DNA of 64,000 bases from Isoetes taiwanensis. Its lineage: Eukaryota > Streptophyta > Lycopodiopsida > Isoetales > Isoetaceae. The notes beneath the pieces were generated by a model. That model saw nothing but the letters and a program-made list of their open reading frames with translations, was not told the origin of the DNA and did not search any database. Where the stretch lies: contig JAJEKV010000001.1 in NCBI GenBank assembly GCA_021234155.1, forward strand, positions 18,805,382 to 18,869,381, written 5' to 3'. Position 1 is the first letter of the stretch. Every line of letters starts with the position of its first letter. Of this stretch, positions 22,480 through 60,853 are shown piece after piece. The position numbers and the translations under genes were made by a program.

Positions 22480-25230
22480 TCATGCAACCTCGATTCCCAA
22501 GAACTGCCTTAGCTCACCTAGATCTGACATTTTGAAATTTTCTTTTAATATGTTCTTGCATCTGTTTAGTATCATTGTGTTGCTGGCCGCCATCACACAG
22601 TCATCCATATACAATCCCATTATGCAATAGTCTTTCTCATCTCTGAAAATATACACATTTCCATCACGTTTCAGTGCCTCAAATCCCTGTTCTTTCAGAT
22701 AATTATCAATACATTTGTTCCATTGTCTGGGAGATTGCTTTAGACCATAAACTGCTTTCTTCAGTCTCCAGACTTTATTTTTGCCTTCCTCATACCCAGG
22801 TGCTTGTTTCATAAAGATTTCTTCTTCCAGATCAGAATTCAAAAATGATGTGCTAACATCCATATGATGTAGCTCTAAATCACATGCATTTGCCATGGCA
22901 ATTAGCATTCTAATGCTTGTTAACTTAACTACTGGAGAATAAGTCTCTTCATAATCCACACTTTGTTTTTGGGAATATCCTTGTTCTACAAGTCTCGCCT
23001 TATATTTAGTACTTCCATCTGCATTTAACTGTAGCTTGTAGACCCACTTGTTACCAACAATATTTTTGTTTTTAGGCATATCAACCAATTCATATGTTGA
23101 GGTTCAGTCAAATGCATTAATCTCATCTTCCATTGCCTCTCTCCACTTATTTGCATTTAGAATGCTCATAGCATCTTCAAAGGTCTGGATTGTTGGTAAA
23201 GCATTCTGGATTACAACTGCAGTCTTAACTGCCTCTTCCCAAAGAAAATTAGGAAGTCCAGAGTGTTTAAGCATGGCTCTAACTGCATTTAAAATACTTT
23301 TATTTTTTCTCTCAGCTATGCCATTTTGTTGGGGAGTCTAACTGCAAGTATATTGTCTCTTTATTCCTTTCTTTATGCAAAAAGTTGTAAATTTGGCTGA
23401 CATATATTCTCCTCCACTGTCTGATCTGACACATTTGATTCTTTTTCCTGTAGAACATTCTACCTCTGCTGCAAATAGCTTAAAAGCCTCAAATGCCAAA
23501 TTCTTGCTTCTTAAACAATAAACTCTTGTTTTTCTACTGTAATCATCAATGAAAGTTACGAAATATTTCTTACCTGGAATCCCTGTTATGTTCAGTGGTC
23601 CACAAAGATCTGTATACACGAGTTCCAAGATGTCTTTTGCTCTCTCATTTGATCTTGAAAAATGCAACCTGCATTGTTTTCCTAACATGCATACTTTGCA
23701 TACATGATTGACAACTTTACTATTAGAGCTTTGTATCAATCCTTTGTTTATTAGGTACTCAATATTTTTTAAATGTGTGTGACCAAGTCTCTCATGCCAG
23801 CATATCAGATCATGAATGGTAGCAACATTAATGCTGTTCAAACAAATTTCCAACACGTTTCCCTAAGAATTTCAATTTACTTCCTTTATAAACTTTATAT
23901 TCAAGTTGCTCAAACACAACTTTGAAGCCCATGTCAACTAGTTGACAAACTGAAATTAAGTTCCTGACTAAGCTTGGAACACACAACACGTTTTGTAAGT
24001 TAACTGCTCTTCCTTCTAAATCAAACAATTCTAATACTTCTACTTCTTCAATCTTCTGCAAACTGCCATTTCCAACTTGTACATGTCCTTCTTTATTGCT
24101 TTTGCACTCCTTTAGCAACTTTGATGTATACGTTATGCTTTTCTCAGCTCCACTATCTAAAATTAGGAGATTATCATCATCATTATTTGAGCAAGCAACA
24201 AAAATTTCAGATTTTCTTACCTCATCATCTGTTCCTGATGTTTCTTCTTCCAACTTGACTTCTTCTGCATGTTTGCTTCAAAAACAGCTTTTCCTCTTCC
24301 CCTACCTCTTCCCCTTGCATTGGCATTTCTTCCTCCCCTTCCTCTTCCTCTAGAGTTGTCTTTGGGTGTGGAGCAAGTTGAAGCATAATGACCTCTGCCT
24401 CCACAATTATAACAGTTTATTTCTTTTGTCAAGTTTGGACAATTTATCTTTATATGCCCATGTTGATTACATTGGAAACAAGGTCCAATTCTGCCTCGAT
24501 TTTCCCCTTTATCTTTTCCTTTTGTGAATAAGATCTGACTTGTTTCTTCTTCATCACTAACTTTATTCTGCTCTATTTCTGTCTTCAACATTCTTTCAGC
24601 TTCCTCTCTAGTCCTTGCTATTGTCCTTATGAAGACAACTATATTTCCCAAACTTGTCACAGTTCTGGAGATTGCAAGAACTTGTTGCTGTTGAGAGTAG
24701 GACACACCTGCACCCTCAAGATCTGCAATAATATTGTCAAAACTCTACAAGAACTCATTCACATTGCTTTTGTCAACAAGTTTCAATCTTCTCAATTCAT
24801 TTTCCAAGACATCGATCTGTGAAGAGGTCTTTTCCTCATATGTCATCAGCAAATATTTCCACATGTCTCTGGGATGTTTCCCTCTTAGTTTCAACACAAT
24901 TCCAGAACTTACTTTGCTCATTATAATTCCTTGAGCCTCCCTTAACTTTGCCTAACTTTCACTGCCTTCGCTTGCACCATAGGTTACACTTACCTCTTTA
25001 CCTTCTTCTCCAGCCATACTCTCAGCTTCTGCTGTGGAACTCCCTTCCTCAGCAACATTTGAAGACTTGTATTTAATTTCTTTTACAACTATATTCACTG
25101 GCTCAACAATTTCCCATAAATCCTCCACTTGCAATACATGCTTTATCTTCTCTTTCCAGACCTGGAACCCTGAATCTCCTTTGAATACTTCAATAGCATT
25201 CAATAACCCTGCACCAAAACGGCTAGACAT
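22480..25230 (-). pseudogene. Copia element 1 gag-pol remnant
   Basis: Blocks are seen for gag (25230-24952 and 24705-24217, with both zinc knuckles and an RGRGRGRG stretch), protease (24253-23828), integrase (23856-23338, with HERLGH and HVCKVCMLGKQC) and RT (23088-22480). The copy is broken in several places and lacks the 3' part of pol in this window. Confidence 0.85.
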
Positions 25231-25236
25231 TTTCTA

Positions 25237-25248
25237 GCTCTGATACCA
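25237..25248 (-). other. Primer binding site, Copia element 1
   Basis: TGGTATCAGAGC on the minus strand, complementary to the 3' end of initiator-Met tRNA, one base from the LTR end. Confidence 0.9.
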
Positions 25249-25249
25249 A

Positions 25250-26108
25250 TGTGAGTAAATTAATAACCGGAGTTGTTTGTAACTCTATTTGACCAAAGAA
25301 AAATATCTAGCTTATTTAAATCACTACATATAATTTCAACATGTCTCAACACATGTCTACAATGCAAATGTTTGCATCCAGCTATTACTCAATCATAGCA
25401 AGAAAATCACAATTATACTAGCCATAAATTATGCTTGAGATATGACCATTGTCAACCTTTACAATAATTACCCATTGAAGATAAAATCAATGGTAATATA
25501 AAGCACAATGCTCATTAGCCTTCGATTACCTTAACAACTGCAGACCTTTTATGCAAATAATTGTCGCTGAGAATGATCACAAAATTTAAACATAAAATCG
25601 ATCCTTCTTACTTCTTATATTTATAATGGACAGTTCCGGCGGTGCTGGAACTGCCCAAGTCCTCCGGATCCGTCTTCGATCTTATCTTTTCAGGAATCCA
25701 GATCTGAAGAAAGTTTCTACTTTCGAATATGTTTTGGCTCCAAATCATTCGATGCTGAAAAATATCATTAATAATATTTTCCCCTTTTTGCTTTATTCAT
25801 ATTTTCCACCATAGATCAAGAAACCATGAATATCCCACATTCATATCATAAACTATGAATATCCCAAACGAATTTTTCATGTCTCTTGTCTTCACCCTAG
25901 GTCACACCACATCAGATAACTAAATCTTTTCACTTGAACTCTATAAGATCCAGTGTTCCCAAGCTGGAGTTCTATTCAACTCCTTCTATTTCCCTTTATC
26001 TGTTAATTGTCTGGTTGCTCCCTTTTTCATTCCAGCTTCTGAGCATACAGTTAAATTTTCAACTTGAGCTTATGAACAATAAGTTGTGAACTGAACAATA
26101 TTCTCACA
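25250..26108 (-). repeat. Central LTR shared by the two Copia internal regions
   Basis: On the minus strand it starts TGTGAGAATATTG and ends TTTACTCACA. It has a polypurine tract on one side (element 2) and a primer binding site on the other (element 1). Confidence 0.85.
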
Positions 26109-26139
26109 TTCCCCTTTTTTCAGATCACAACTTTAAAAT

Positions 26140-29100
26140 ATCCCTGCAATTTAATTTTGTAATCAACTTCTGAAACTTAATATAGCTTAATGCCTTTGTC
26201 AACACATCTGCTAGTTGCAGGGGTTTTTTAATCCTAGTAGTAATGATTGTACTAGCCCATTGTATGGGTCCCATGACCTATTGGTCTTCGTGGACGTTAA
26301 AAAAACTATTCTATTCTATTCTATTCTATTCTTCAGACCTAACATATTCGACCTGTATCAAGGATCTTCTTACCATATCTCTGATAAAATGTAACTCCAT
26401 TTCTATGTGTTTTGTCCTCTCATGTTGTATAGGATTTTTGGTCATAGCTATACAACTCTGATTGTCACATAGCAACTTTGTACCTTCTTTTTGAATCAAG
26501 CCAATCTCTTCCAAAAATCTTCTACACCATACTATTTCCTTTGCTGCAAGAGTTGTTGCTGCATATTCTGACTCAGCTGTAGATAGAGCAATTGATGACT
26601 GTTTTTTGCTTCTCCAACTAACTGGTCTTCCTCCAAGCATTAACAAATAACCTGAAGTTGATTTTCGTTCATCCTGATCCCCACACCAATCTGCATCACA
26701 ATATGCCTTTAGGATTAAATGATTTGTATCAAAAATTATCCCAGTACTCTTTGTTCCTTTCAGATATCTTAATACCTTTTTGGCAGCTAACCAATGTCTT
26801 TTTCCAGGATCATTATTATATCTACTAAGGACATTAACTATATATGCAATATCAGGCCTTGTATTGTTAGCTATGTATAACAAACTTCCTATCAAAGGTC
26901 TATAAGCAACTTCAGCCATTTCATCTCTCTCTTTGTTTGTCTGTGGACATAATTTTCTTGAAATCTTCATTCTTGGCACAGCTGGGAATTTGATAGGATT
27001 ACAATCTTTCATGTTAAATCTGTCAATCACAGTATCAATGTACTTTTCCTGAGAAAGTGTGGTCCTTTTATTTTTCCTGTCTCGTGCAACCTCGATTCCC
27101 AAGAACTGCCTTAGCTCACCTAGATTTGACATTTTGAATTTTTCTTTTAATATGTTCTTGCATCTGTTTAGTATCATTGTGTTGCTGGCCACCATCACAC
27201 AGTCATCCACATACAATCCCATTATGCAATAGTCTTTCTCATCTCTGAAAATATACACATTTCCATCATGTTTCAGTGCCTCAAATCCCTGTTCTTTTAG
27301 ATAATTATCAATACATTTGTTCCATTGCCGGCGAGATTGCTTTAGACCATAAACTGCTTTCTTCAGTCTCCAGACTTTTTTTTTGCCTTCCTCATACCCA
27401 GGTGCTTGTTTCATAAAGATTTCTTCTTCAAGATCAGCATTCAAAAATGCTGTGCTAACATCCATATGATGTAGCTCTAAATCACATGCATTTGCCATGG
27501 CAATTAGCATTCTAATGCTTGTTAACTTAACTACTGGAGAGTAAGTCTCTTCATAATCCACACCTTGTTTTTTGAAATATCCTTGTGCTACAAGTCTTGC
27601 CTTATATTTAGTACTTCCTTCTGCATTTAACTTTAGCTTGTAGACCCACTTGTTACCAGCAATATTTTTGTTTTTAGGCATATCAAGCAATTCATATGTT
27701 GAGGTTCTGTCAAATGCATTAATCTCATCTTCCATTGCCTCTCTCCACTTATTTGCATTTAGACTGCTCATAGCATCTTCAAAGGTCTCAGGGACTCCAT
27801 TTTCCAGAACCATTAGAGCTTCAGTTATGTTCCATTTGTTTGCATTCAACCTACTACTTCTGCCATCCCTTTGTCTTCCATAATCTTCAGTGTTTATGCT
27901 TAAATCATCTTTTAGTTTTTTCCCTTCTGCTTTCCTTTTATAGTGCCCTGCATTTGAACTTTCATGAAAATTCTCTTGATTATTTTCCACATTCTGATTG
28001 TGTTCAATCTCCTCTCTTTCCTCTTCTTCTTCGCTGTCATTTTCAATATCCTCAATATCCTCAGGTCTTGATAAATCTGAAGATTCAATCAATTTATCTG
28101 ACTTCTTTTGCTCCTCTTCTATCATATATTTTGTCATCTCCTTTTGCATATGTTCTACACTTATTCCCCTTGGCTTGTACAATTCTTTTTCTACAAATTC
28201 AACATCCCTGCTAACTATAATTCTCCTAGCTGCAGGATCATATACTCTATATCCTTTCGAATGCTCATCATACCCTACCAAGTAGGTTATTAGTGACCTA
28301 TCATCAAGCTTCAGTCTTTTCTCTTCTGATATATGTGTATAGGCTAGACATCCAAATGCTATGAATTTTTCATAGTTTCATAATTTTTCTGGACTTTTTC
28401 CAGCCAATACCCTTGTTGGTAAAGCATTCTGAATTACAACTGCAGTCTTAACTGCCTCTTCCCAAAGAAAATTAGGAAGTCCAGAATGTTTAAGCATGGC
28501 TCTAACTGCATTTAAAATACTTTTATTTTTTCTCTCAGCTATGCCATTTTGTTGGGGAGTATAACTGCAAGTATACTGTCTCTTTATTCCTTTCTTTATG
28601 CAAAAAGTTGTAAATTTGGCTGACATATATTCTCCTCCCCTGTCTGATCTGACACATTTGATTCTTTTTCCTGTAGAACATTCTACCTCTGCTGCAAATA
28701 GCTTAAAAGCCTCAAATGCCAAATTCTTGCTTCTTAAACAATAAACTCTTGTTTTTCTACTGTAATCATCAATGAAAATATTTCTTACCTGAAATCCCTG
28801 TTATGTTCAGTGGTCCACAAAGATCTGTATGCACGAGTTCCAAGATGTCTTTTGCTCTCTCCTTTGATCTTGAAAAAGGCAACCTGCATTGTTTTCCTAA
28901 CATGCATCCTTTGCACACATGATTGACAACTTTACTATTAGAGCTTTGTATCAATCCTTTGTTTATTAGGTACTCAATATTTTTTAAATGTGTGTGACCA
29001 AGTCTCTCATGCCAGCATAGCATATCAGGAATGGTAGCAACATTAATGCTGTTCAAACAGTGAGGATCAATGCCAAACAAATTTCCAACACGTTTCCCTA

Positions 29101-30466
29101 AGAATTTCAATTTATTTCCTTCATAAACTTTACATTCAAGTTGCTCAAACACAACTTTGAAGCCCATGTCAACTAGTTGACAAACTGAAATTAAGTTCCT
29201 GACTAAGCTTGGAACACACAACACGTTTTGTAAGTTAACTGCTCTTCCTTCTAAATCAAACAATTCTAATACTCCTACTTCTTCAATCTTCTGCAAACTG
29301 CCATTTCCAACTTGTACATGTCCTTCTTTATTGCTTTTGCACTCCTTTAGCAACTTTGATGTATACTTTATGCTTTTCTCAGCTCCACTATCTAAAATTA
29401 GGAGATTATCATCATCAATATTTGAGCAAGCAGCAAAAATTTCAGATTTTCTTACCTCATCATCTGTTCCTGATGTTTCTTCTTCCAGCTTGACTTCTTC
29501 TGCCATGTTTGCTTCAAAAACAGCTTTTCCTCTTCCTCTACCTCTTCCCCTTGCATTGGCATTTCTTCCTCCCCTTCCTCTTCCTCTAGAGTTGTCTTTG
29601 GGTGTGGAGCAAGTTGAAGTATAATGACCTCTGCCTCCACAATTATAATAGTTTATTTCTTTTGTCAAGTTTGGACAATTTATCTTTATATGCCCATGCT
29701 GATTACAATGGAAACAAGGTCCAATTCTGCCTCGCTTTTTCCCTTTATCTTTTCCTTTTGTGAATAAGATCTGACTTGTTTCTTCTTCATCACTAACTTT
29801 ATTCTGCTCTATTTCTGTCTTCAACATTCTTTCAGCTTCCTCTCTAGTCCTTGCTATTGTCCTTATGAAGACAGCTATGTTTCCCAAACTTGTCACACTC
29901 CTGGAGATTGCAAGAACTTGTTGCTGTTGAGAGTAGGTCACACCTGCACCCTCAAGATCTGCAATAATATTGTCAAAACTCTGCAAGAACTCATTCACAT
30001 TGCTTTTGTCAACAAGTTTCAATCTTCTCAATTCATTTTCCAAGACATCGATCTGTGAAGAGGTCTTTTCCTCATATGTCATCAGCAAATATTTCCACAT
30101 GTCTCTGGGATGTTTCCCTCCTAGTTTCAACACAATTCCAGAACTTACTTTGCTTATTCTAATTCCTTGAGCCTCCCTTAACTTTGCCTGACTTTCACTG
30201 CCTTCACTTGCACCAGAGGTTACACTTACCTCTCTACCTTCTCCTCCAGCCATACTCTCAGCTTCTGCTGTGGAACTCCCTTCCTCAGCAACATTTGAAG
30301 ACTTGTATTTAATTTCTTTTACAACTGTATTAGCTGGCTCAACAATTTCCCATAAATCCTCCACTTGCAATACATGCTTTATCTTCTCTTTCCAGACCTG
30401 GAACCCTGGATCTCCTTTGAATACTTCAATAGCATTCAATAACCCTGCACCAAAACGGCTAGACAT
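26140..30466 (-). pseudogene. Copia element 2 gag-pol remnant
   Basis: The gag/protease/early integrase block is 30466-28769, a further integrase block is 28722-28378, and the large 28281-26326 block covers late integrase, RT and RNase H. The end of RNase H (QLADVLTKAL) is recognisable near 26200, beyond a small insertion. The copy is broken in a few places but nearly complete in content. Confidence 0.9.
26232..26333 (+). mobile_element. Short insertion with (TATTC)n tail, non-LTR retroelement-like
   Basis: About 100 bp interrupts the RNase H end of Copia element 2 between sequences coding VRSEE and QLADVL. On the plus strand it ends GTCTTCGTGGACGTTAAAAAAAC followed by four to five TATTC units. 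Microsatellite tails of this kind are typical of the 3' ends of some plant LINEs and SINEs. No clear target duplication is visible. Confidence 0.55.
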
Positions 30467-30472
30467 TTTCTA

Positions 30473-39132: not shown

Positions 39133-39564
39133 TTGGCTGTCACAGCCCAAGTCACCAACATAGAGCTCAAGCTCGCTCACCAATGCTACAGCTCAAGCTC
39201 GCTTCCTCCATTCTGCAACTCCCATACACGAATAGCTCGTACTGCAACTGCAAATGAGTTCTCATCCTCCCTGCCCCTCACACTCTTCCTACACAGATCT
39301 ATGGCCTCATCTAAGCTTCCAGCATACAAATTCACTCCACTCTTCCCCTTCCCTTTTCTAGCCTGCCTCTTTAAGATCTTACCTATGAATTGTAGAGACC
39401 TTTGGCAGCTCCAACACAGATGGCAGCAACGAAATTCACAGACAGAATCTAAGGCTTCAACAAGCACCGAAATTCACAGACAGAATCTACTACCACTATG
39501 CTCTGACTTACCTCCAACAGCCCAAAGAAGGCCGCCCATGCCGATTCTTCCTCCTCGCCTCCAA
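39133..39564 (-). other. Possible host-gene remnant interrupted by the large hAT
   Basis: Open stretches exist on both strands (plus 39133-39573; minus 39467-39186, containing LDEAIDLCRKSV). The hAT target duplication GCCTCCAA ends this segment and restarts at 50224, so the sequence originally ran on into 50232 onward. The minus strand of 50232-50390 has an ATG-initiated frame (MASRVWICTG). I cannot name a product. Confidence 0.25.
39557..39564 (+). repeat. hAT target site duplication, left copy
   Basis: GCCTCCAA, identical to 50224-50231. Confidence 0.9.
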
Positions 39565-39639
39565 CAGGGATAGGTTCTATACGTACAAAATTAAAATTCC
39601 TGACGTATAAAGTCAAAAAATACGTATTTTTTAATAAAA

Positions 39640-39960
39640 TACGTATTTAACGATAAAACCTCGCCGCGGAAAAAAAAAATTCAGCGTCTGAAAAGATCCG
39701 GGAAAGCGTCTGTGAAAAACTTCGCGACGCTTTAAATACGAATTTTGGCGTCGCAAAAGTACTGACTGACTTTTCGCAGACGCTTAAAATCGCGATTCAG
39801 CAAGACGAAGTTTTTTTCACAGACGCTGCTTTAAACTTTTCGGCAGACGCTAAACCGGGCGGTGTGTTCGCGTCTGCGATTTTTTTTCACAGACGCTGAA
39901 AAAGTTTTCACAGACGTCTGAATCAAGTTTTTCAGCGACGTGAAATTTTTTATATATTTT
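39640..39960 (+). repeat. Left subterminal array of CAGACGC/GCGTCTG motifs
   Basis: At least eight copies or near-copies of GCGTCTG and CAGACGC occur in both orientations, often flanked by A/T runs and TTTCACAGACGCT. Short motif clusters next to hAT ends are the usual transposase-binding sites. Confidence 0.75.
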
Positions 39961-41169
39961 CGGCTGGCGGATTAGGTTTTTTTTAGCCAAAAAAGGTAAT
40001 TTGCTTCGCCCAACCTTGCAATTTGCCACCCAAAACCTTTTTTTTTTTTTTGTTTTTGTTAGTTTTTAGGTTTTTTTTGTTGTTTTTGATAGGTAGGCGT
40101 GTTAGGTCCAAGTAGTTAGGCCCCCCTTGTTGCCCCCGCGGGTGTAAGGGGCGAACGATGGTGAGTGCCTTGTTTACGTGAAAATGAGCTTGGCCTATTT
40201 TAGAAAAAAAAAAATAATAATAACAATTTAAGCAAATAATAATTCAAGAGTAAAGTAAAAAAAAAGAAAACCAAAGAAGAAAAGAAATTGGTTGCCTTCC
40301 CTTAAACGACAACTGAGAGGGCTTTTTTAGGGTCGCGTGTTGCTAAGAGCATAGGCATGCCCCTTGCCTGGTATTGCCGCATTTATTTGCGCCATGCCGA
40401 GGGTGGGTGGCACTGCTGAAGCTTAAGGCAACTAGGGTCATCCTTTATTAGGAGTATAACCCTCGCCTGACGCCGTTGTTGGCCTTGGTCACGCGGTGTC
40501 GAAAGGTGTGCGTTGTACTTTTATTAAGGGTTAGAAGAATGTTTTATTAATTCACACCCTAGTTCCTGATGGTGTTGTTGATGAAAGTCCGACACTAATA
40601 TAGGAACTGGCGTATGTTTTGATAAGCATTCGATTGGTCTCGTCTTTTGAAAAAAGCATGACCTGGGGACAAGTGCAATGCATTTAAAACTTGCTAGCCT
40701 TGCATTTTGGCAGTAGCTGGGCTATAGATCATAAATCGTGTTTTGGTCCTTTTATTTGTTACCCTATAATTGGCCTTGCACATACATACTCATGTTAGGG
40801 TCTTAGTGTAGGAATAGGAAGCGTAAAATTAGCGTTTTGTTTTGGTTAGAGTGAGTTGATTTACCCTCATGTGCTAAGCACTAAATTCAAAGTTTTATCT
40901 TTGCTTGACTTGTAGGTGTTCTTTGTTGTGGGTTTGTGTATTATCGCTTGATGCATTTTGCTAGTCTGCTAGACAATCCTTTAAAACAAGCAGTATGACT
41001 TCAGAAGAGAGAGAGGAAGTTAACTTGCAACCAAATGTGGCATTAGTGTCTCAGATAGAGCGCAAAGCGTCTCAAACACGTGCTCTGAGCTGCAACTGAG
41101 TCATCTTAGCAAAGACCGCCGCGTAGAAAAAGAAGTAGACCACAACAAGCATGGTCTACTTTGAGACCA
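39961..41169 (+). other. 5' region of the hAT element before the accessory gene
   Basis: No recognisable coding sequence is present. T and A homopolymer runs occur at 40040-40080 and 40200-40265. It may hold the promoter and untranslated exons of the accessory gene. Confidence 0.4.
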
Positions 41170-44100
41170 GATTTTATGAACTGGTTGTGTAATCGGCTAT
41201 GCAATGCCTCAGCTCAAGATTTGGAATTGATTACCAGAAATGAGGAAGGATGGCTAGACTACCATGCGGGGCTGGTAAAAGATGCCGAGAGGGCTTTTAA
41301 GCTTCAATGATGGAGCTAGAGCCTGCAAAGAGTGAGCAAGAGAGGTATACATGGATAGTGGGTAATATCAGCCGCACTACCGGCAATATGATCACAGAAG
41401 TTGCAAATTTGAGTAGTCATCGCTTGAGGCTAGAGCTGAAAGAAAAAGCCAGCACATGGAATGCGGCATGGACCAACAGAAAATTGAAGAAAGAAGCCCA
41501 TCAACCCCCCCATCTTGTTAAGAAAGTGTTGGCACAAACCATAAAAGCTAAACGTCCCGGTGAGAGACGGATAGGGAGTGGGAAGCTCGTAGAAGAGCGG
41601 ATGCTAAGACTACTTGGTTTGCCATGGTAGACTCATCACAAATAATAAAACGGAAATCTAATTGGTTCTCGGTTCATATGGCGCGATTGTACAAGTGCAA
41701 TATTTTAGGGTCTAGTTTTATTAAGGATGAACCTTATTGTGTAAAACTTCAACATAATAATTTTCAGTCTAGTACAGAACCCAATAAGTTAGTGGAAGCT
41801 ATCTTTCAAGAACATGAGGGAGTCGGGGAATGCAAGTTAGGCATGGGTGTATCATCATTTGCATTGGTAGCACAACCGCCTAGAAAGACAAGGCTTAATT
41901 TTCCCATTTTGGAATGGAGGTTCGTTGGCAACCTTCTTCACAAGTCATGGGTCCAATGCCTTTCTTGAGCTTGCATTTAAGAAGTTGGGAGCTGTCCCCG
42001 AGTTGAGAGGCGGACTTGAGTCGCTTGAGGAGCGCAGAAAAGAAAGAATTATTTGTTGCATCTAGGGTTGGGGACTTAGCAATGTCATTCGTAGAAGGGA
42101 CTCAAAGCTCCATCAAGAAAGATATTTGCATATGGACTTGCATCCGGACAATATATTGCTCCATTTTGATTATGGAAAGGAGAAGGGATGTATTAATCCT
42201 CAGTCGTATACATTGGCATTTGTGATTGGGGTGAATCGAGGTTGATCCACGAGGCGGTGGAGGTAAAACGATGGCATTACAAGGGTATGGATGGCGAAGG
42301 TAAGAAAAGAATTGAGATGGAAAGGGCGGGGCATCCATATATGCATGATGATCTTTTTTTTGGTAGTGGCTCAAGGCGATTCGCAAGGGTTGACTTTGAT
42401 TTACACGGGGCAGCGTACATTGTCTACTACTTAGCTGACTTTGCTAGTAAGCACTTCTACATGGAGTCAATAGGAAACTTGGAGCAGCAAGGCAAGCATC
42501 GGAGAATGTGCGACTATTTGAAACATTGCGTTGAGTCGCCAATGAGGGACAAAACACGAAAATTTGATATGGCCCAGCTACTTGACACAATGCGAGGCGA
42601 TTTTCATTGCTCTCCAATTCCGTGGCACGAGGCCACAATTGGAATCAGATTGATTCTTCAACTTGGCTGTGGTGGCGACGATGCATTAGACCAAGTTGGT
42701 CCTAGTCACGCCCTAGCGTGCATATTCACTTACATTCAAACATCCTTGTATTACATAATATTCCAACTAAATTCATTAAACACTTATCTGATGCTATTTG
42801 AAAGATTATTGTCTATGTGTGTTGTGTAGCTTAGTTTTCCTTTTTCGTGTGTTTTTTGTGTTATTTATTCTATGCTTTTTTATATGTCGCAGCTAACGAA
42901 CATTATAAAGACAAGAAGTCAAAGCACACCTATACAAGTCAGTCAGTGCACCTATAGAAGTCAGCAGTCCAAATTATGTCCCACGAACAGGACGAAGAAT
43001 TGAATCCTGACCCACGGAATGTGGGTGCGTCAGAGCAGCAGGATCAGCATGGATTTTCGGTTCCCTCTAATTTGAGGACCCCCTCTACTCAGTCTCCTTG
43101 GCATGAAGGGTTGGAGAACGAGCTTGAGATGTCAGCTGCTCGGCAAATGGAGAGAGCAGCAGCACATGCAAGGGCGAATGAGTTTATACGCAGCGAGTTA
43201 AGAAGGTTGCGTGCGATGGATGAAGTTTCAAAGAGGGATAATTGCACCATCACAGAGGTGCATAATGTAGCTGGCGAGGCAGGGCCTGGCTATTGTCCAA
43301 GTGGAGCAGACTACGACGATGTAATCACAAATTTGGACAAGAATGAGTTTGAAAGTGAGTGGCCTAGTAGGCGGGGTAAGTATAAGGCTCACGAGTGCAA
43401 GAATGCTGTGGTTCGAGCAAAAGCAGTCGAGCGTCATGTCCAAGTGAAGGGACATTTACCCCACAACGGTGAGTTTAGTAAGAGTTTTTTGGCGAGCAAG
43501 TATACTACGAAGCTTGTGAAGGAAGTGCCCGTAAATTATGGGAGTAGGAAATGGAGGCAAAGGAAGCGGTAGTGGCAAAAGACGAAGAGGGTCAAGCTAT
43601 CGGAAGATGGCGAGAGTGGGCCATATGGTGAGCCCATCACCATTACATACCTTGTTCGGGACGCTATCCAACTTTTGGAGGTGACAGGGTAGCAGCATTT
43701 GGAGCCGTGAATGACCTTGTGGATATTCGGGCCCAACTAGAGAATGAGAGAAGTCGGAACCTAACACTTTTCAAGAGAATATTCGCTTGAAGGACCGTGC
43801 GATGGGTATGACAAGATGGCGGCTGAATTAGAGGACGCTTAAACGGCAACTAGCGGCATTAAACGAGGGGAGGCAACGGTCCTTAGAGAAAACAACGAGC
43901 ACTTGCGCAATTTGACCAGATCATTAGACTCGACCCTTTTAGGGTGACTTGGGCGAGTCGATATCCTATCTCCCTCGAGTATTTGTATGAGAGAGGTGGG
44001 AAGAGCTAAAGGTTGTTGATTACAGACATTGCCAATTTTGTGGTGACAACGACACAGTGGGCTGGTACACTCTAGGGTGTGGGCATCGTATGCACATGCG

Positions 44101-44390
44101 ATGTGTTCTTGATTGGATGTTGCAAAGCCGCTTTCATCCAACCTTGCAAGACGGATGGATTTTTCCCGAGTTACAATATGCCATATTTAATATGCAAGGT
44201 CGCATGCCAGCGTTGCCACATTTGGACCGCCGAGGAGGGATGGGCAGATGCACACTTTTCAAACCTTTCGCGAGATGGAATTGTTGAGGGGGTGGAGGAG
44301 CCGCGTGAAGGAGAGACAAGTGCCGACATTAACCCGGTTCTTACCACCACCTCCGGGCCTTGAGGGTGATTATATTGATCCAAATGACCA
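41170..44390 (+). pseudogene. hAT accessory gene: kinase-like domain plus RING-H2 segment
   Basis: Blocks at 41307-41630, 41624-41968, 42242-42829, 42976-43572 and 44057-44363 run in one direction. A kinase-like catalytic loop, HMDLHPDNILL, lies at 42129-42161, and a DFG-like CDWGES at 42221-42238 in a frame one step different. RVDFDLHGAAYIVYYLA (about 42390) fits the following kinase helix. A hydrophilic coiled-coil-like part (42976-43572) comes next. Then CQFC (44030-44041) and CGHRMHMRC (about 44078) lead to CQRC (44205-44216), which together fit C-x2-C...C-x-H-x2-H-x2-C...C-x2-C. Several frame changes are present. Captured host domains or a long-standing hAT accessory gene are both possible. 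Confidence 0.55.
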
Positions 44391-44851
44391 ATGAAAATGA
44401 GATATTACATTTTTAGACATGCCAAATTTTGACCTGTATCATTTTGTGAATGGCGGGTATAATGACGTTATTTCAAACAAGGTGTAATGATGTTATCAAA
44501 GGATCGAGTAGTGCTCATAGTAAAAGCATCGAGACTTCCAAATCGCTCTTTCGTTTTCTGTTTGACGAGTAAAGGCATTGAGACTTCCCAATCTCTTTTA
44601 TCCTGGCTTAGTCTCTTTTGTTTGTCCTCTTTGCTCACCCCCGGCTCACCCTCGTCGAGTCTCCTTCGTTTCTCGTTTATCGTATCTAATTTGCCCCTAG
44701 GATGACATCGCCACTTCGGTGTGGCGAATTAGATACGTTAAGCAGGAAACTCGAAAAGGGAGTAAGCCAAGAGCGCGACCCTCTTGGATGGTCATGGTTG
44801 GATGGTGAGTGAGTCAAAACATCTGCACACGCAACCCTCTTGAATGGTTGT

Positions 44852-45118
44852 CAGGTCACCAGGCCTTATATTCTCCATGGCAAACAATATAGACTTCTCG
44901 AAATTCTTGTTACCTCCTTTAGAAGGAGCGAGCTTTGCTCTCACTCTCTTTTGCGTGTCTCTGTGTCAATGTATCTTAGATACTTTGCTAGGTTATATTA
45001 CACAAAGACGCGCAAAATGGGGGTCGGAGCAGAAATCGTTCGTTCTAGAGGAGGTTACAAGGTTTTTGAGTACTCTATTTTTATTGTGGCCACGGAGGAT
45101 ATAAGGCCTAGTGGTTGC
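44852..45118. repeat. Hairpin B, copy 1 (about 265 bp foldback)
   Basis: The left arm has AGGCCTTATATTCTCC and TTGTTACCTCCT. The right arm has AGGAGGTTACAAG and GGAGGATATAAGGCCT in inverse order. A partial second copy lies at about 45766-45975. Confidence 0.75.
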
Positions 45119-45180
45119 TTGCGATTCTGTGGGTTCATTAGATGTTAGTGATTGAAGCAAGCTTTGACTCCTGAATTCAA

Positions 45181-45300
45181 GCATCGAGACTTCCCCGTTT
45201 TTCTTTCCCCCCGGCTCTTTGGGCAATGTAGCTTAGTTTACATGCTAAGTTCCATTGTCCAAAGAGCCGGGGGAAAGCAAAGATTGGGACGTCTCGATGC
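45181..45300. repeat. Hairpin C, copy 1 (120 bp foldback)
   Basis: The first ten bases, GCATCGAGAC, are the exact reverse complement of the last ten. Inner arms CGGCTCTTTGG and CCAAAGAGCCG also match, around a loop near TTTACATGC. Confidence 0.85.
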
Positions 45301-45602
45301 CTGGACCCAGGTCTCGAGGCGTCAGAGGTGAGAGCGCACTCTAATTTCAAGCCCTGGCTTAGTCTCTTTCGTTTTCTGTTTGGTGTATCTAATTTGCCCC
45401 CTAGGATGACATCGCTCACTCAGGTGGCGAATTAGATACGTCAAGCAGGAAACTCGAAAAGGGAGTAAGCCAAGAGCGCAACCCTCTTGAATGGTTGTCA
45501 GGTCACCAGGCTTTATATTCTCCATGGCAAACAATATAGACTTCTCGAAATTCTTGTTACCTCCTTCGGGTTAATTGGATGTTAGTGATTGATGAGTTCA
45601 AG

Positions 45603-45716
45603 CATCGAGACTTCCCAATCTTTCTTTCCCCTCCTCTTTGGGCAATGTAGCTTAGTTTACATGCTAAGTTCCATTGTTCAAAGAGGGGTGAAAGCAAGGT
45701 TTGGGAAGTCTCGATG
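45603..45716. repeat. Hairpin C, copy 2 (114 bp foldback)
   Basis: CATCGAGACTTCCCAA and TTGGGAAGTCTCGATG are exact inverted ends. The overall sequence is similar to copy 1. Confidence 0.85.
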
Positions 45717-46266
45717 TTTGTACTGTGTCTCTTTCATCCCCGGCCCGGAGCGTTATCCTCTTGAATGGTTGTCAACTCACCAGGCTTGATATTGTTCGCT
45801 ACAAACAATATAGACTTCTCGAAATTCTTGTTACTTCCTCTACAAAGAGCGGGCTTTGTTCTGACTCTCTTGTGTAGTCTCTCTGTGTCAATGTAGCTTA
45901 GTCACTTTGCTAGGTTATATTACACAAAGAGGCTCACAATGGGGGTCGGAGCAAAAATCGTTCGTTCTAGAGGTTGAACTTGCTATGACGTCAGAGGTGA
46001 GAGCGCACTCTAATTTCAAGCCAAAGTGGTGCCTGGGTGTTGTCCATCTATATAGCGGTTGTTAGACACCAAATCATGGAACATCCTAACTCCTGCTATT
46101 GATGGAGAACCTTGAGCATCACTATGACTTCAAATTAGAGTACGCGTCCCCTTTGGCAAGGTGGTGGATTGTAGGTAACAAGGTTTTTGAGTACTCTATT
46201 TTTATTGTGGCGGCGGATGATATCAGCCTAGTGGTTGCTTGCGATTCTGTGGTTGCACGCCGATGG

Positions 46267-46439
46267 CATGCCAAATCGCCATTTGGATGCCATCTGGACC
46301 TATAATTTGTACCTCCGGATCCATTCTTTTGGGTGGCACATGCCATGCAAACCCATTTGGGTATTCAGAGCATGTGCCACCCAGAGGAATAGAGTACAGA
46401 TTATAGGTCCAGATAGCATTCAAAGCCCAATTTGGCATA
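46267..46439. repeat. Hairpin E (about 173 bp foldback)
   Basis: The arms carry ATCTGGACCTATAAT and ATTATAGGTCCAGAT as an exact 15-base pairing, plus ATGCCAAAT/ATTTGGCAT and GGGTGGCACATG/CATGTGCCACCC. The loop is near 46350. Confidence 0.85.
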
Positions 46440-46450
46440 CCGAAGTTATT

Positions 46451-47276
46451 CCCGACTTGGGTACCCGGTACCTTGTGAACCCGATGGATCAGATTCGTAG
46501 AGGGGCTGGTCCGGGTCGTTTTTTGGCCCCTTCGCATGCGTAGATTACTTCTCATCAGCAAGATTCTGGCGCATGCGAAGAGGCAAGCAACAACGGAGGT
46601 CGAGACGGGTCTGATCCAACGAAGGTTTTCAGGGCACTGCGGTTACACATGAAAGAAACATAGAAAGAAACATAGAAAGAACTATCATACATTAACGAAA
46701 CATTTGTGACAAAAAATTATAACCAAAAACTTCTTTTTTATTAATAGTGCCAGGGACGGTTACAATAGTATGAAAATCCTCAATACCAATTACAAATGGT
46801 GAAGATACTCATCACATCATTTTTCTAGGCGCCTTCTTCATCGGATTTCATCATTTGCGGTTCCATCCTCTTCTTCTTTGGGGACCTAGGTTCAACCTCC
46901 GATGACCCTTTCCTTTAGTGAAACGCCCTCGAGACGTGTTTTTCCTAGCCCGTTCTCTCGTTTGTCAAGGTAAAGCGCCAAAGGTGAGTCCGTTGGATCA
47001 CGTAAGCCGATCCACGCCATCAACCGCATTGCTCGAACTCGGCCTTTCAGATCGGACTCCTCGGTATCCCGGCCGTCGGTGATCCGTCCGAGAATATGGC
47101 TTGGTCTATATCATCTTCGTCATCAACGAAGTGGGTAACGTTGAATGTCTTCATCAACATGGCTTGCGGCATTTATTGCAAGCATCTCGCCCTCACCGTC
47201 TTCGGTTTGTCCTCTTCCACTTCGAATCGTGATCCATGAAAGGAAATCGTAGCTTATCGATTGCGGATGTACCCCA
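46451..47276 (-). other. Downstream of the hAT transposase
   Basis: No domain is recognised. GCATGCGTAG...GCGCATGC gives a small palindrome near 46535-46580, and AAAGAAACATAG is repeated at about 46651-46680. Confidence 0.4.
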
Positions 47277-49206
47277 TTACGATTCAATAGCCGCCGGTTT
47301 GAGAAGTTGTATACAAGTTTTATGCGCCTTCTTATGTAGCAAGCGATTGCGGGTGACTTTGTGTATGTACTTATAGGCACTCCAATTCCTCTCACTTGCA
47401 CTATTGGAAGATACCAAAGAGAGGATAGTCATTGCAATTGCACGCAAGGTATCGAAGAACTTGCCCATGGGCTTGCCACCATGCATATGATTCCATATTT
47501 GGTTCCTTCTTATGACTCTCCGGTCGCGTCCGTGAAGCTCTTCATCATCGCCCACCTTCCACTTTCGAGGTTCGGTATTCGTTAACTTCGGCAATGAAAA
47601 GCTTGTAGTCCGATTTGTTGGGATAGAACATTTTGCAACCTTCTTCAACGAGCCCATCACTTCTTTATCTCGTATCTTTGGTCCATATCGTGGTTGTGTG
47701 GGTCTAAGGCATGCGCGGGCGCCATGAAGATCATTGTATGACTTCTTCCATCGTTCATTGAAGTCTCTCGAGTAGTCTTTGCTTGCTTTTAGCATTGTCA
47801 AATGGGCATTGGGACCATCACGTTCTAGGAAGGATTGAATGGAGTGCCAACACCTCCAGACCTTTCCGATTGCTTGCCTTCGAAGAATCAAGGGTTTTGA
47901 TGGCATGACAAGCGGGTTGCATGCACCTCACAACATTTTTACACCTTTCCAAAATGTCTCCCCAAGCATTTTCGAAGGGCAGCAGCTTCTTTGTCGGTGT
48001 TTGGCGGCATTTTTCCCTTTCTCGCCTTCTTTCCCAATCAAAAAACTCGTATGATTAAAGGTTGAGATAATCCAATCACGACACTTCAGCACTCTTTCAA
48101 AGGCGGATATAATTGGAACCAAACCGAGTTTGCCGGGATTCATGAGTGCTAGGCTCTTCCGACGCGAATGACTTGTAAATGGCATAAATTGCCGGCTTTT
48201 TTTGTGATGAATTTTACAAGCCGACGCAGCTTTCGAATGGGATCTTTGAACCACGTGTCTTTGGAGAACCGGTCCTTCAAAGAATAGGTTCAGGCAATGG
48301 CATTGGCAACTAGTAGCATGCAACCCTGGAAATTCGGACTCCAGTAATTGACCCGCTAGCTTGCAATTAGACGCGTTATCCATTACAACTTGAAATATTC
48401 TCTTCGGTCCAAAACTCTCTATCACGGCCTTTGTTTTCTGAAAAATCCAATCTCCGGTCACTTGGTCGGGTTTTGGTTTCTACGGTTTTCAAAAATACTT
48501 CACCCCCTGGATACACGATCATGAAATTAATAAGATGGTCCTTGTTTACATTGCTCCAACCATCAGTCACTAATGAAGCTGGCCGCGCTTCAGTCACACG
48601 ACACAACTTCATCTCCACCCTCTCAACCATTTTTCCATGTATTTCATCAACCATTTTATTGTTGGCATGCTTGTATGAAGGCAGTCTAAAAGCCGGTCCT
48701 GCTTTGGCAACTTCTTGGAAGGCTTCTTTCATTGCTTTATGCTCCAGAATATGTGGAGACAGCCCAGCATATAAAAATGCCTCTACAACCTTGGTTGTGT
48801 CTTCTTCAATTGCTCGATGTTAAGCAATGATCAACCCTCTGTTGCTTCGATCTGTCTTTCCACTATTTCAATTGTCTCTATCATTCTCGTTCTCCGGGTG
48901 CTTATACCTATTGACCCTAGTCCGCCCTCGACGGTATCTTTGTCCCAACAGGGGTGGTATAGTTATCTTCGTCCTTCACCCGGCCCTGCTCTTGAGTATT
49001 CGTAACTCGTCTTTTTCTCATATTATTCTTCGTTTTGCGTATCCCATCCAGTCGAGACAATCTCTCGATGGCATCCTTTCGCAAGTCAGCAGATGCAGTA
49101 CAAGTTGCGACACCGACGTCTCGTTCACGTAAGATGTGAGCTCAATTCTTGTTGCGAGAACCATTTACCGATGTGTATCCACAAAACACACATTCCCACT
49201 CATTTG
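47277..49206 (-). pseudogene. hAT transposase, broken
   Basis: Read right to left: a BED-type zinc-finger start, WECVFCGYTSVNG (49203-49144), then a DUF659-like core with TEARPASLVTDGWSN (about 48560) and FQVVMDNASNCKLAGQLLE (about 48370). An extended linker follows, and then the C-terminal hAT dimerisation domain with LSLVSSNSASERNWSAY (about 47390). This is the order in plant hAT transposases, which cut and paste elements with 8 bp target duplications. Frame shifts separate the blocks at about 48400 and 47915 and in the finger, so the enzyme is inactive. It belongs to the element whose ends are 39565 and 50223. Confidence 0.85.
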
Positions 49207-49839
49207 CGCCAAACTCTTTCACAAACTCCCATTACGGGCCTCTTTTAGACCGCAACTCCGCATCAGCGACCATGTGTGCGAGTTGCGGCCCCCGCGGCCC
49301 TCGCCACGCGCACACGCATCCTCGCACCTCTAGAGATAGATGCATGGCTGGCCGCCTCGCACCTCCAGAGGTAGATGCATGACCGGTTAGCCACCATTGC
49401 TGACCGGACGGTGACAATGTCTCTTAATCGACTCCTTGATTACACGAACTAAAGGAAGGCATTATATATGCAAAGGAGCAAGCTCACAATGCATATGTTA
49501 CGTCGGCGTTCCCGAAGAATCAAGGGGGGTTGGACGGGACCCTATAGGATATTCTATGGAAGCAGATGCCAACCCAAGGCTGGAAACCACTGGGACGGAG
49601 TAAACTCACGTTCCAGTATCCAACGTCAGGCTCGGGACTCGAAAAACGACACCTCAAAGGCAAACCGTTTCCCAAGGAGTATTTTGACTCAACCTGGCGG
49701 TCAACGTTCGAGGTGAATTCTAGGGCTAATCACGTTTTTCTTATATATACTATTAATGATTGCCACAAAAGCGGGCCAAACGATTGGCGCAAATATTTTT
49801 TTGCTTAGTAAACCGGGGGCAAAATTTAGAAATTTTACC
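49207..49839 (-). other. hAT region upstream of the transposase
   Basis: No domain is recognised in this presumed 5' region of the transposase gene. GCACCTC(T/C)AGAG(A/G)TAGATGCATG is a short direct repeat at about 49324 and 49359. Confidence 0.35.
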
Positions 49840-50125
49840 AGACGTCGAAAAACAACTAAACCGCGTGCTGCGAAATATTTTCGGCGACGCTTGAAGATTA
49901 AGATTCAGCGTCAGCGAAGTTCAAATTATTTCGCGGCGTCGCCGAAAAACTCTAAACAGCGTCGCCAAAAAAATTCAGCGTCTGTTGTGGCGCCGTTACA
50001 GGCGCCGAAAAAAATTGGTTTCAGCAGACAACAAGCGGTAATCTTCAGCGTCGCGAAAATATTTTCAGCGTCTGCGGTTTTGTTGCTGGCAGACGCGCGA
50101 AAATTTTTCGACGCCGGAATTGTTT
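49840..50125 (-). repeat. Right subterminal array of CAGACGC/GCGTCTG motifs
   Basis: Five or more copies or near-copies (CAGCGTCTG, GCAGACGCG, TTCAGCGTC) mirror the left subterminal zone. Confidence 0.7.
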
Positions 50126-50223
50126 TTTTAGTATTTTTTGCGTTTTATACGGCAAATTTGTGCCGTATCATTCAATTCATACGTATTCCGTATAAAACGT
50201 ACAGCGTATTGAACCTATCCCTG

Positions 50224-50231
50224 GCCTCCAA
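50224..50231 (+). repeat. hAT target site duplication, right copy
   Basis: GCCTCCAA, identical to 39557-39564. Confidence 0.9.
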
Positions 50232-51077: not shown

Positions 51078-52921
51078 ATGACTTCCGTTGTTTTTTCCCT
51101 TTGTCTTTTCATCCTCTCATTTCTTCTTCCTTCTTCAGATGCTGCTATTTGTGCTTCTCAGGAGTGCAATGACTTTCACATTTGTTATCCCTTCAGTTTA
51201 GGTTCAAATAAAAGCTGCGAAGGACTCCCCAGTTATCGTTTGCTATGCCAAAATGGGGCTCTGTTCATCAACGGCCATAACGTGACTGACATCGACTATT
51301 CCAGTAAACAAATCAGTGTGAAGGAGAGCGATTGTGCCATGTTCGACAATAACTGGACGGAATTTCTAGAACAGGTTCCAGGTGCTAATGCCTCCGAGGT
51401 TACTTGTGATAACATCCTAATAATCCAATGGACCCTAGACTCAGGTGAGTGTAAATGTTTAAAATCTGATTTATAAACTAAGTCTGAAAATCATGCTGCG
51501 CTTTCAGATCCAGTTTGCAAAGGCACAAAAAAATCCAACTCCAAGACGGCTGCCGTAGTGGGTAAGTTAAGTCAAAGTCAGTGCTTTAAGTTGTGTTGGT
51601 AAGCTAAGTAATGTCGATCTGTGATGAATGAATTGTTGTTGTGCAATCTCTTATGATTCTGAGATAGATGAAGCAATTAGAATGTCAAAAAAAATTTACG
51701 AGTAGTTTGGAAGGGGTAAATTCAGGTATTTCGGTGGTTGTGGTTGTGGTGCTGGTGCTGGGTTTGGGGGTTTGGGTATATTATTGGAAATGGAAGAAAA
51801 ACGAGAGGGAAGACTCTCCGAGCAGCACCCAGCTGAAGAATCTGCAGCAGATCATCAGTTCACATCAGGGAAGAGAAAGTGCAAAGCTATACAGCTATGC
51901 GGAGATGGAAAAGGCCACCAATTCCTTCTCCGCTGATCTGAAGCTTGGCGCTGGCGGATTCGGCACTGTTTACAAAGGCACCCTTCAAAACGGCACTGTG
52001 GTGGCCATCAAGCGATCCAACCAAACCAGCGAGCAAAGCATAGACAATTTTGTGAACGAGGTAACCATTTTGTCACAGGTGAATCATCGCAACCTTGTCA
52101 AATTGCTTGGCTGTTGTGCTGCAAGAGAAGGCCAGCTGTTAATCTACGAATATGTCTCCAATGGAACATTATTTGATCACTTGCATGGAAAACTCAAAAA
52201 TGGAGGCCTTAGTTGGGATATAAGACTTCAAATTGCAGTGGAAACTGCTGAAGCTCTGGCATACTTGCACTCTGCAGCATATCCCCCAATTTACCACAGG
52301 GATGTCAAATCTTCCAACATACTTCTAGATGACAAATTCATGGCTAAAGTGGCCGATTTTGGAATCTCTCGTCTTGTTCCTGTTGATGCCACGCATATTT
52401 CGACTCTGGTCCGTGGAACTCCTGGGTACTTAGATCCAGAATACTACGAGACCTTTCAGCTGACAGAAAAGAGTGACGTATATAGCTTCGGAGTAGTTCT
52501 GCTGGAATTAATCACTGGCCAGAGACCGATTGACTTCAATCGACTTAATAGAGACGCCAATCTGAGTATATATGCAATTCCAATTATTAGGAAAGGAATG
52601 CTTCTCCAGATTTTGGATCCCAACTTGCAAGCTTCTATCAATCCCGAGATTCTTGTAAGCATAAAAGCTGTTGGTGATTTTGCCCTTGAATGCTTGGCTA
52701 CTAGAAGGGAGGATAGACCCTCCATGAAGCAAGTTTTGGAAGAGCTGCTTAAAATCAAAGGACCATCCAGAGTCGGAAAAGGTGGTAGATCTCACTCAAA
52801 TAGCTCTGCAACAGCTTTCAATTTGACGTCTCATCATTCGTCATCTCTACTGACTGTGATGGCTGACTGTGATGGCTTGATATGGCATCAGTCCCTCTAC
52901 AACGTGACAAGACATTGTTAG
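51078..52921 (+). CDS. Wall-associated-kinase-like receptor-like kinase, three exons
   Basis: The exons are 51078-51444, 51508-51561 and 51726-52921, joined by GT...AG introns in the same phase, giving 538 codons plus stop. Residues 1-22 are a signal peptide (MTSVVFSLCLFILSFLLPSS). A short ectodomain with CASQECNDFHICYPFSLGS follows, like the galacturonan-binding (GUB_WAK) domain. Exon 3 opens with a transmembrane segment (ISVVVVVVLVLGLGVWVYYW) and a basic stop-transfer. The kinase domain has GAGGFG, VAIKR, HRDVKSSNILL, DFG and GTPGYLDPEYY, so all catalytic residues are present. Such proteins sit in the plasma membrane and signal from the cell wall. The ectodomain is shorter than in classical WAKs and lacks EGF repeats, as in WAKL/LRK10-like members. 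No frame break is seen; this is the best intact host gene in the window. Confidence 0.85.
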
Positions 52922-59848: not shown

Positions 59849-60313
59849 TTAAGCTCCCTCCAATTCTTGCATGCAAGCCGCTGCACCATATATATTGGGC
59901 AACCCAGTTGCATCATGGAATTCCTTAATGCACTGAATTAATCTTGCACCTGTAGGCATTGCAACAAAACGTTTGTACAGCATTGTCTTCGAAGCCAATA
60001 CAAGTGTGATTTTCTTGGTATATTTCTGTACTGTTGCCTTCCCAACATAAAATCTCTGACCGACATGTAGGGGCATATCCCCGTGTGCAAGAAAATACAG
60101 AACCATAGCAACTGCTTTCCTCGGATCAACAGGGGGCCTTATTTTATTACCCGGCCTGACAAGATAGGGCACAATTAAACCTACTAATCTCTCAAATGTG
60201 GCTCTCTTCATCCTGTAAAATTGGTGCCACATATCATCTTCGAAGGAAGCTATACAATTCCATGCGTGGTTATCAATATTATCCCATTGAGTTCTCGCCT
60301 TGGAGCAATCCAA
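59849..60313 (-). pseudogene. PIF/Harbinger transposase, N-terminal half only
   Basis: MWHQFYRMKRATFERLVGLI, then DPRKAVAMVLYFLAHGDMPL and LIQCIKEFHDATGLPNIYGA match the DDE_Tnp_4-type transposase of PIF/Harbinger elements up to the GLPN-x-GA-x-D segment, where the first catalytic Asp should follow. The rest, including the DDE residues, is missing. It converges with the Myb-like ORF1 remnant. Confidence 0.75.
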
Positions 60314-60853
60314 AATCTTCTAGGTGGTCTTCTAACCTGCTGGAACCCAGAACCATTAACGCTGCAGATCGCAAAAAACATACCATTGTTGTCTTCTAAA
60401 ACATCATCATCGAAGCGTATCCGGGGGATCTTCGAGCTCGTTGAGTTCCAATAGCCGCAAACAATATCTCAGAATGCAAATCCGAGTGTCAAAGCCCGAA
60501 AAAGCATGGCAATCATACCAAGAATGACCGGATCCATGGTTCAGTGGCCGGAATCGAAAGAATGGGGAGGGAAAACTAGAAATGAATTATCCCACATAGC
60601 CCGGCCGAACCAAGAAAAACAGCTTGAATATCCCACAATTTGGCGCCCGAATTGAACGTTACGATCGAATTATCCCACATTTTTCGTCGCCGGAATTGAT
60701 GCACGATCAAAAAATCCGCAAACAAAGCAAAAATTCACGCCAATAACAGAGGCTGTTAAGCCTCGAGAGACAATCATCTCTCCTCTCCTCCCGAAAAATA
60801 CGCATATTTCGTGGGAGGAACCATGATGTGACGAGAGACATTTTTTTACGAGC
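60314..60853. other. Region right of the Harbinger remnant
   Basis: No coding sequence is recognised. The right end of the Harbinger element should lie here but no TIR was identified. Confidence 0.4.

Follow-up and report, generated by a model that had tools for sequence, protein, structure and literature searches.

Why should a DNA transposon of the quillwort Isoetes taiwanensis carry a dense array of long hairpins, and could these hairpins be precursors of small RNAs that serve the element itself? We analysed the array in a stretch of 64,000 nucleotides of contig JAJEKV010000001.1 (the window, to which all positions refer unless another contig or copy is named), where a preliminary description had placed a cluster of MIRNA-like hairpins inside a hAT element.

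The host element and its genes

The host of the array is a hAT element of 10.66 kb (39565–50223). It is flanked by an 8-bp target-site duplication, GCCTCCAA, at 39557–39564 on the left and 50224–50231 on the right, and it ends in short terminal inverted repeats (39565–39584 on the + strand, starting with CAGGGATAGGTTC, and 50204–50223 on the − strand) that are identical in 12 of their first 12 bases. The decayed transposase gene (46860–48950, − strand) contains a DUF659 domain (4.4e-13), which is matched at 1.3e-28 in a 434-aa frame of sister copy L024, while a Dimer_Tnp_hAT match (0.00047, 20.3 bits) lies just below the cut-off of 21.4 bits. The sole match of the transposase in the protein collection searched was one distant DUF659 protein.

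Two further genes lie on the + strand, convergent with the transposase. The first, at 41200–42829, is a decayed kinase-like gene with an open relative of 574 aa in copy L011 (PF07714, 5.4e-12; PF00069, 2.8e-11). The second, at 42958–44390, is a decayed coiled-coil/RING-finger gene (“U” plus RING) that forms a single frame of 495 aa in copy L013 and one of 373 aa in L027, both with matches to PF00097 and PF13639; no homologue of the RING frame was found in the protein collection searched. All three genes are thus decayed in the window copy, whereas sister copies show long open frames for them. The hairpin array is located between the 3′ ends of the kinase and RING genes on one side and of the transposase gene on the other.

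Other frames surround the element. A stop-free kinase frame of 417 codons (Pkinase, 1.3e-49) adjoins it at 51668–52921. The − strand of 22480–30469 holds what we take, from inspection of the frames by eye, to be two copia-like element remnants, and a frame at 59849–60319, which has no Pfam match, resembles a PIF/Harbinger transposase.

Structure of the hairpin array

The foldbacks are real and far above chance. The preliminary description had counted seven or more of them in five types, and we find eight of types A to E between 44600 and 46445; a further hairpin just downstream, at 46476–46640, adds type F and brings the number of types to six. All are given here for the + strand, with z-scores from 60 dinucleotide shuffles each. 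Hairpin A1 (44600–44780, z −4.7) is followed by B1 (44825–45135, z −17.6), whose arms are about 130 nt long, by C1 (45160–45321, z −17.2), A2 (45345–45485, z −8.3) and C2 (45593–45725, z −13.5). Hairpin B3 (45748–46256, z −13.1 including D) is interrupted by the nested hairpin D (46003–46145, z −6.1), and the array closes with E (46265–46441, z −14.3) and F (z −4.5). Two stretches are incomplete units: remnant left-arm copies of hairpin C at 44519–44606, which fold weakly and form no hairpin C of their own, and B2 (45477–45566), a lone left arm of hairpin B without a long foldback. The long arm matches quoted earlier are present as described, with ATCTGGACCTATAAT pairing in E and CATCGAGACTTCCCAA forming the ends of C2. 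Every foldback exceeds its shuffled controls, from F as the weakest to B1 as the strongest. Of the 180-nt windows, 48% of 67 inside the array reach a folding energy of −60 kcal/mol or lower, compared with 1.7% of 2048 elsewhere in the 64 kb. Several foldbacks are duplicated, as had been noted, and the repeats look like tandem copying of a hairpin block.

None of 24 weak Rfam hits reached the gathering score, so that no known miRNA family was matched. A coding origin of hairpin E was considered on account of a 29-codon open frame in one arm and was rejected, the frame having no PDB match. A codon-degenerate pattern made from hairpin E found one array and two identical places in the genome, and the one that was read is AT-rich and noncoding.

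The array as a trait of the transposon family

In 20 copies of the element that were found by similarity to the array, the units occupy the space that separates the + strand genes from the transposase and follow a shared order. Rearrangement is frequent, with losses and many duplications, and E occurs in up to four tandem copies. Because these copies had been retrieved through the array itself, a search with transposase DNA was also run. From its 40 scored candidates, 15 loci that were absent from the listed array hits were fetched, and all 15 contain array units; 13 have multiple hairpins, and in two, L033 and L036, nothing but E/F is left. Every copy examined thus has at least some of the array, which disposes of the concern that the hairpins might be absent from other copies. 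Directly beside the copy L012 lies an inverted second piece of the same hAT family (L012:8583–10000), consisting of the right end and the transposase.

Exchange of the array between lineages

Five of the 20 array-found copies (L013, L014, L016, L017 and L019) belong to a diverged lineage, here called type 2, as opposed to the type 1 lineage of the window. Between the two lineages the kinase genes are 67.8% identical (14 vs. 5 copies) and the transposase genes 81.7% (16 vs. 5 copies), whereas the array from C2 to F is 94.0% identical (7 vs. 5 copies), a value on a par with the 93.5% seen within the window lineage. Identity between the lineages increases near 44650 and drops again near 46690, and in a tree of the array the diverged lineage is placed beside L020 and L027. 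Because the array is near-identical while the kinase and transposase genes have diverged, these comparisons indicate that it has passed between the diverged lineages as a cassette, and this exchange hints that the array is useful to the elements.

In comparisons of one sequence pair each between the lineages, the kinase gene gave a dS of 1.85 and a dN of 0.29, the RING gene a saturated dS and a dN of 0.23, and the transposase gene a dS of 0.89 and a dN of 0.11; a further comparison for the transposase, made with L017, was left out because no more than 28 codons could be aligned. The low dN/dS suggests that both the kinase and the RING gene have a function in the family, and they are apparently accessory genes of the transposon.

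A more distant relative is found on contig C976, where a 4.3-kb element has an 8-bp duplication and the ends GGATAGG(G/T)TC. These ends resemble those of the window element in 10 of 14 bases (inverted), for one of two candidates with equal score, and the element has a 73% DNA match to window positions 47084–47338 in the 3′ region of the transposase. In the 9.1 kb of C976 that was read, tblastn gave no kinase, RING or transposase match below E 0.1, and the element is thus assigned to a third lineage by its DNA match and its ends. The element contains four C-type hairpins with 69–77% identity and z-scores of −3.0 to −5.9. It also has a hairpin of 200 nt at C976:17975–18175 (L045 with L053 and L052; −86 kcal/mol, z −13.2), for which no significant match was found in the window. 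A frame adjoining the C976 element, without significant Pfam match, presumably is BED-like. Elsewhere, L054 (C1058:10359050–10359400) is a C-type hairpin of nearly palindromic sequence with a strong fold on either strand, and L055, a related C-type site, has lost its fold (z −0.1).

Evidence for constraint on the RNA

Plant MIRNA precursors are recognized by a foldback of less than 300 nt whose duplex has few mismatches, by precise products of 20–24 nt with 2-nt overhangs, and by a guide that is the most conserved part. Could the hairpins of the array have been maintained as such precursors? The consensuses of B1 and B3 differ in 17 pairs, of which five changed from one Watson-Crick pair to another on both sides (double compensatory) and one from Watson-Crick to G·U on both sides; in eight others a standard pair is retained or newly formed, in two a standard pair is lost, and one is unpaired in both consensuses. 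No unique 21-nt conserved block was found between B1 and B3, and hairpin B is at the size limit of 300 nt.

Across the C-family classes C1, C2 and C′, the last being the C hairpin of the diverged lineage that lies outside the shared array, one window of 21 pairs holds just 2 of the 31 variable paired columns (permutation p 0.002). In eight hairpins of the family, three of which (H2, L054 and L056) had been retrieved through this core itself, divergence amounts to 0.107 in the 5p block, 0.241 in the 3p block, 0.329 and 0.345 in the outer stems, and 0.597 in the loop. In the five hairpins not found through the core, the respective values are 0.076, 0.238, 0.254 and 0.376, and 0.521. Tests of the 5p block on two sequences at a time are weak (p 0.028 and 0.10 against the outer stems; p 0.067 and 0.70 against 3p). 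Among 41 C copies, private changes number 3 in 1716 positions of the block and 26 in 3246 elsewhere (p 0.005), a deficit that may be partly mutational because most copies look dead.

The duplexes of C1, C2 and C′ have 1–2 mismatches in 22 pairs and no bulge, as expected of a plant MIRNA foldback, and the diverged hairpins H1 and L056 have six unpaired positions of 22. The C family is also the only one in which the putative guide is more conserved than the star, stem and loop. Its conservation predicts a 21-nt product, UCUUUGGGCAAUGUAGCUUAG, which on the + strand would correspond to the 5p positions 45216–45236 in C1 (TCTTTGGGCAATGTAGCTTAG) and 45635–45655 in C2, both predicted by comparison; the 3p (star) strand of C2 is predicted from pairing, with a 2-nt offset, at 45666–45686. 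The other hairpin types are known from similar copies only, and for this reason no guide can be predicted for them.

A further possible trace of RNA pairing lost its control on recheck. The six consensus stems read on the + strand have 42 G·U and 21 A·C pairs (binomial p 0.011), distributed as 5:5 in A, 16:4 in B, 4:0 in C, 6:4 in D, 3:5 in E and 8:3 in F. The contrast with decay that an initial single-copy control had suggested (244:228; Fisher p 0.031) was rejected, because for A and C this control also counted differences between classes. When class consensuses are used, the copies give 198:147, which compared with 42:21 yields p 0.21 and with the class total of 64:32 p 0.13. The + strand bias toward G·U is therefore weak and may be mutational.

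Search for targets

A genome pattern search with the C block, allowing up to three mismatches and excluding array flanks, gave 108 places (100 of them listed) and 51 places, mostly arrays or array relics. Among the 12 places that were read, two (L046 and L048) are weak sites standing alone and one (L058) is a weak 3p-like site; none is convincing. The exclusion of array flanks lowers sensitivity, so that a target with two or three mismatches may have escaped this search. In the genome pattern searches, no host target or parent gene of the array was found among the places read. The earlier reservation that the arms might match only themselves is thus largely borne out, with the exception of a single site within the kinase gene that the element itself carries. 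To this site the left arm of hairpin B (about 44875–44895) is complementary with three mismatches in 5 of 5 type 2 copies looked at and with four mismatches in 5 of 5 type 1 copies looked at. Since single shuffles of the array also reach three mismatches, in 2 of 15 targets, the site is a weak lead and may be due to chance. No 21-mer of the array matched the element's genes, outside the array sequence, at fewer than three mismatches.

Interpretation of the array

We hypothesize that the hairpins are MIRNA-type precursors clustered in an accessory, exchangeable cassette which the hAT family carries and which serves the element, and we give this reading a probability of roughly 0.5, a value that was lowered because the wobble contrast failed on recheck. 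The designation “MIRNA-like” gains support in so far as pairing appears to be maintained between B1 and B3 and a duplex-sized block of C appears conserved above the opposite arm and the loop. The proposal of a “young MIRNA nursery” agrees with the way array content turns over from lineage to lineage but suits C poorly, because the C-type hairpins are deeply diverged. According to the hypothesis, the array would be transcribed into + strand RNA, in the same direction as the kinase and RING genes; this RNA would fold into hairpins and be cut by a Dicer-like enzyme, and products such as UCUUUGGGCAAUGUAGCUUAG would enter Argonaute and repress transcripts to the element's benefit, with host silencing factors or competing elements as candidates. 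The boldest form of the hypothesis, namely a polycistronic microRNA arsenal of which at least one guide, UCUUUGGGCAAUGUAGCUUAG, is kept in three lineages and which, together with the kinase and RING proteins, would disarm host silencing or rivals, is tentative and on the whole rather unlikely.

Might the array instead be a passive, foldback-rich spacer, in which inverted duplications were amplified in tandem and kept paired through exchange between arms and elements at the DNA level, with no small-RNA function? The frequent rearrangement of the array would agree with this, and so would its exchange between lineages, itself a DNA-level process, and the loss of the wobble contrast. Nor do recent copies evolve more slowly in the array, private changes being 0.0217 in the array (ARR, 7 copies), 0.0082 in the kinase gene (KIN, 14) and 0.0125 in the transposase gene (TNP, 16), values that come from samples of different size. 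However, exchange between arms predicts that both arms are equally conserved, and in C the 5p block surpasses the 3p block, if weakly in single comparisons. Moreover, C-type hairpins last in three lineages with barely alignable noncoding flanks, although C′ may go back to an earlier exchange. On these grounds we consider a mere spacer a doubtful explanation that still deserves attention.

Less probable again is that small RNAs of the array, as hairpin siRNAs in the manner of Mu killer and MuDR in maize, silence this transposon family and thereby control the element itself or its rivals. The complements of the C block are mostly other arrays, among the places listed, and the kinase-gene site could pair with the left arm of B; against this, no closer match of an array 21-mer exists in the element's genes, and the kinase site may be chance. 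Furthermore, the transposase strand has a candidate AATAAA at 46737, ahead of the array, so that the transposase RNA may exclude it. We regard it as very improbable that every hairpin is a separate small transposon, a nested MITE: several hairpins are of MITE size and D does interrupt B3, but the order of the units is common to the copies, save for losses and block duplications, and no free-standing unit was seen among the 40 candidates scored of 1437 from the array search.

Relation to known systems

Tandem MIRNA clusters of plants, MIR395 among them, are loci of the host, and their targets are known. The array shares with them the tandem arrangement of related precursors of similar size, and differs in being borne by a transposon and exchanged between element lineages. 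In maize, Mu killer produces an inverted-repeat RNA whose arms match the MuDR transposase gene. Like Mu killer, the array is inverted-repeat sequence from a transposon; unlike it, its arms have at best the site with three to four mismatches in the element's kinase gene.

The closest parallel comes from rice. According to the portion of the report available to us, miR820 precursors lie in CACTA transposons, are expressed as a single type and target OsDRM2, the likely parent gene, and miR820 has been proposed to act against host silencing (PMC3459959). Both systems place a MIRNA-type hairpin within a DNA transposon, where it is multiplied along with the element; compared with the one type and known target described in that portion for miR820, six hairpin types are arrayed here in a hAT element and are known from sequence (PMC3459959). 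The array is most likely a multi-hairpin counterpart of rice CACTA/miR820. In MITE-derived MIRNA genes, as the accessible part of the source describes, inverted repeats of transposons serve as MIRNA precursors (PMC10004981). The hairpins of the array are likewise inverted repeats of a transposon, with a predicted precursor role; however, the precursor is the MITE itself in those genes as far as this source part goes, whereas the array hairpins lie as cargo in the interior of a long hAT element that bears genes (PMC10004981). A literature search, which covered few subscription papers, found no report of such an array.

Small RNAs of four lycophytes, apparently including I. sinensis, have been sequenced, and a clear 21-nt peak is described for nearly all lycophytes and ferns studied, according to the excerpted text of that survey (PMC5569507). 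The exact 21-nt prediction made here is thus directly testable in quillwort small-RNA libraries. Small RNAs normally act against transposons, and a transposon with a conserved, shared set of MIRNA-type hairpins would, if this reading is true, be a direct example of an element that uses RNA silencing for itself. It would further mean that small-RNA cassettes move between transposon lineages, and that MIRNA genes can spread without duplication of host genes.
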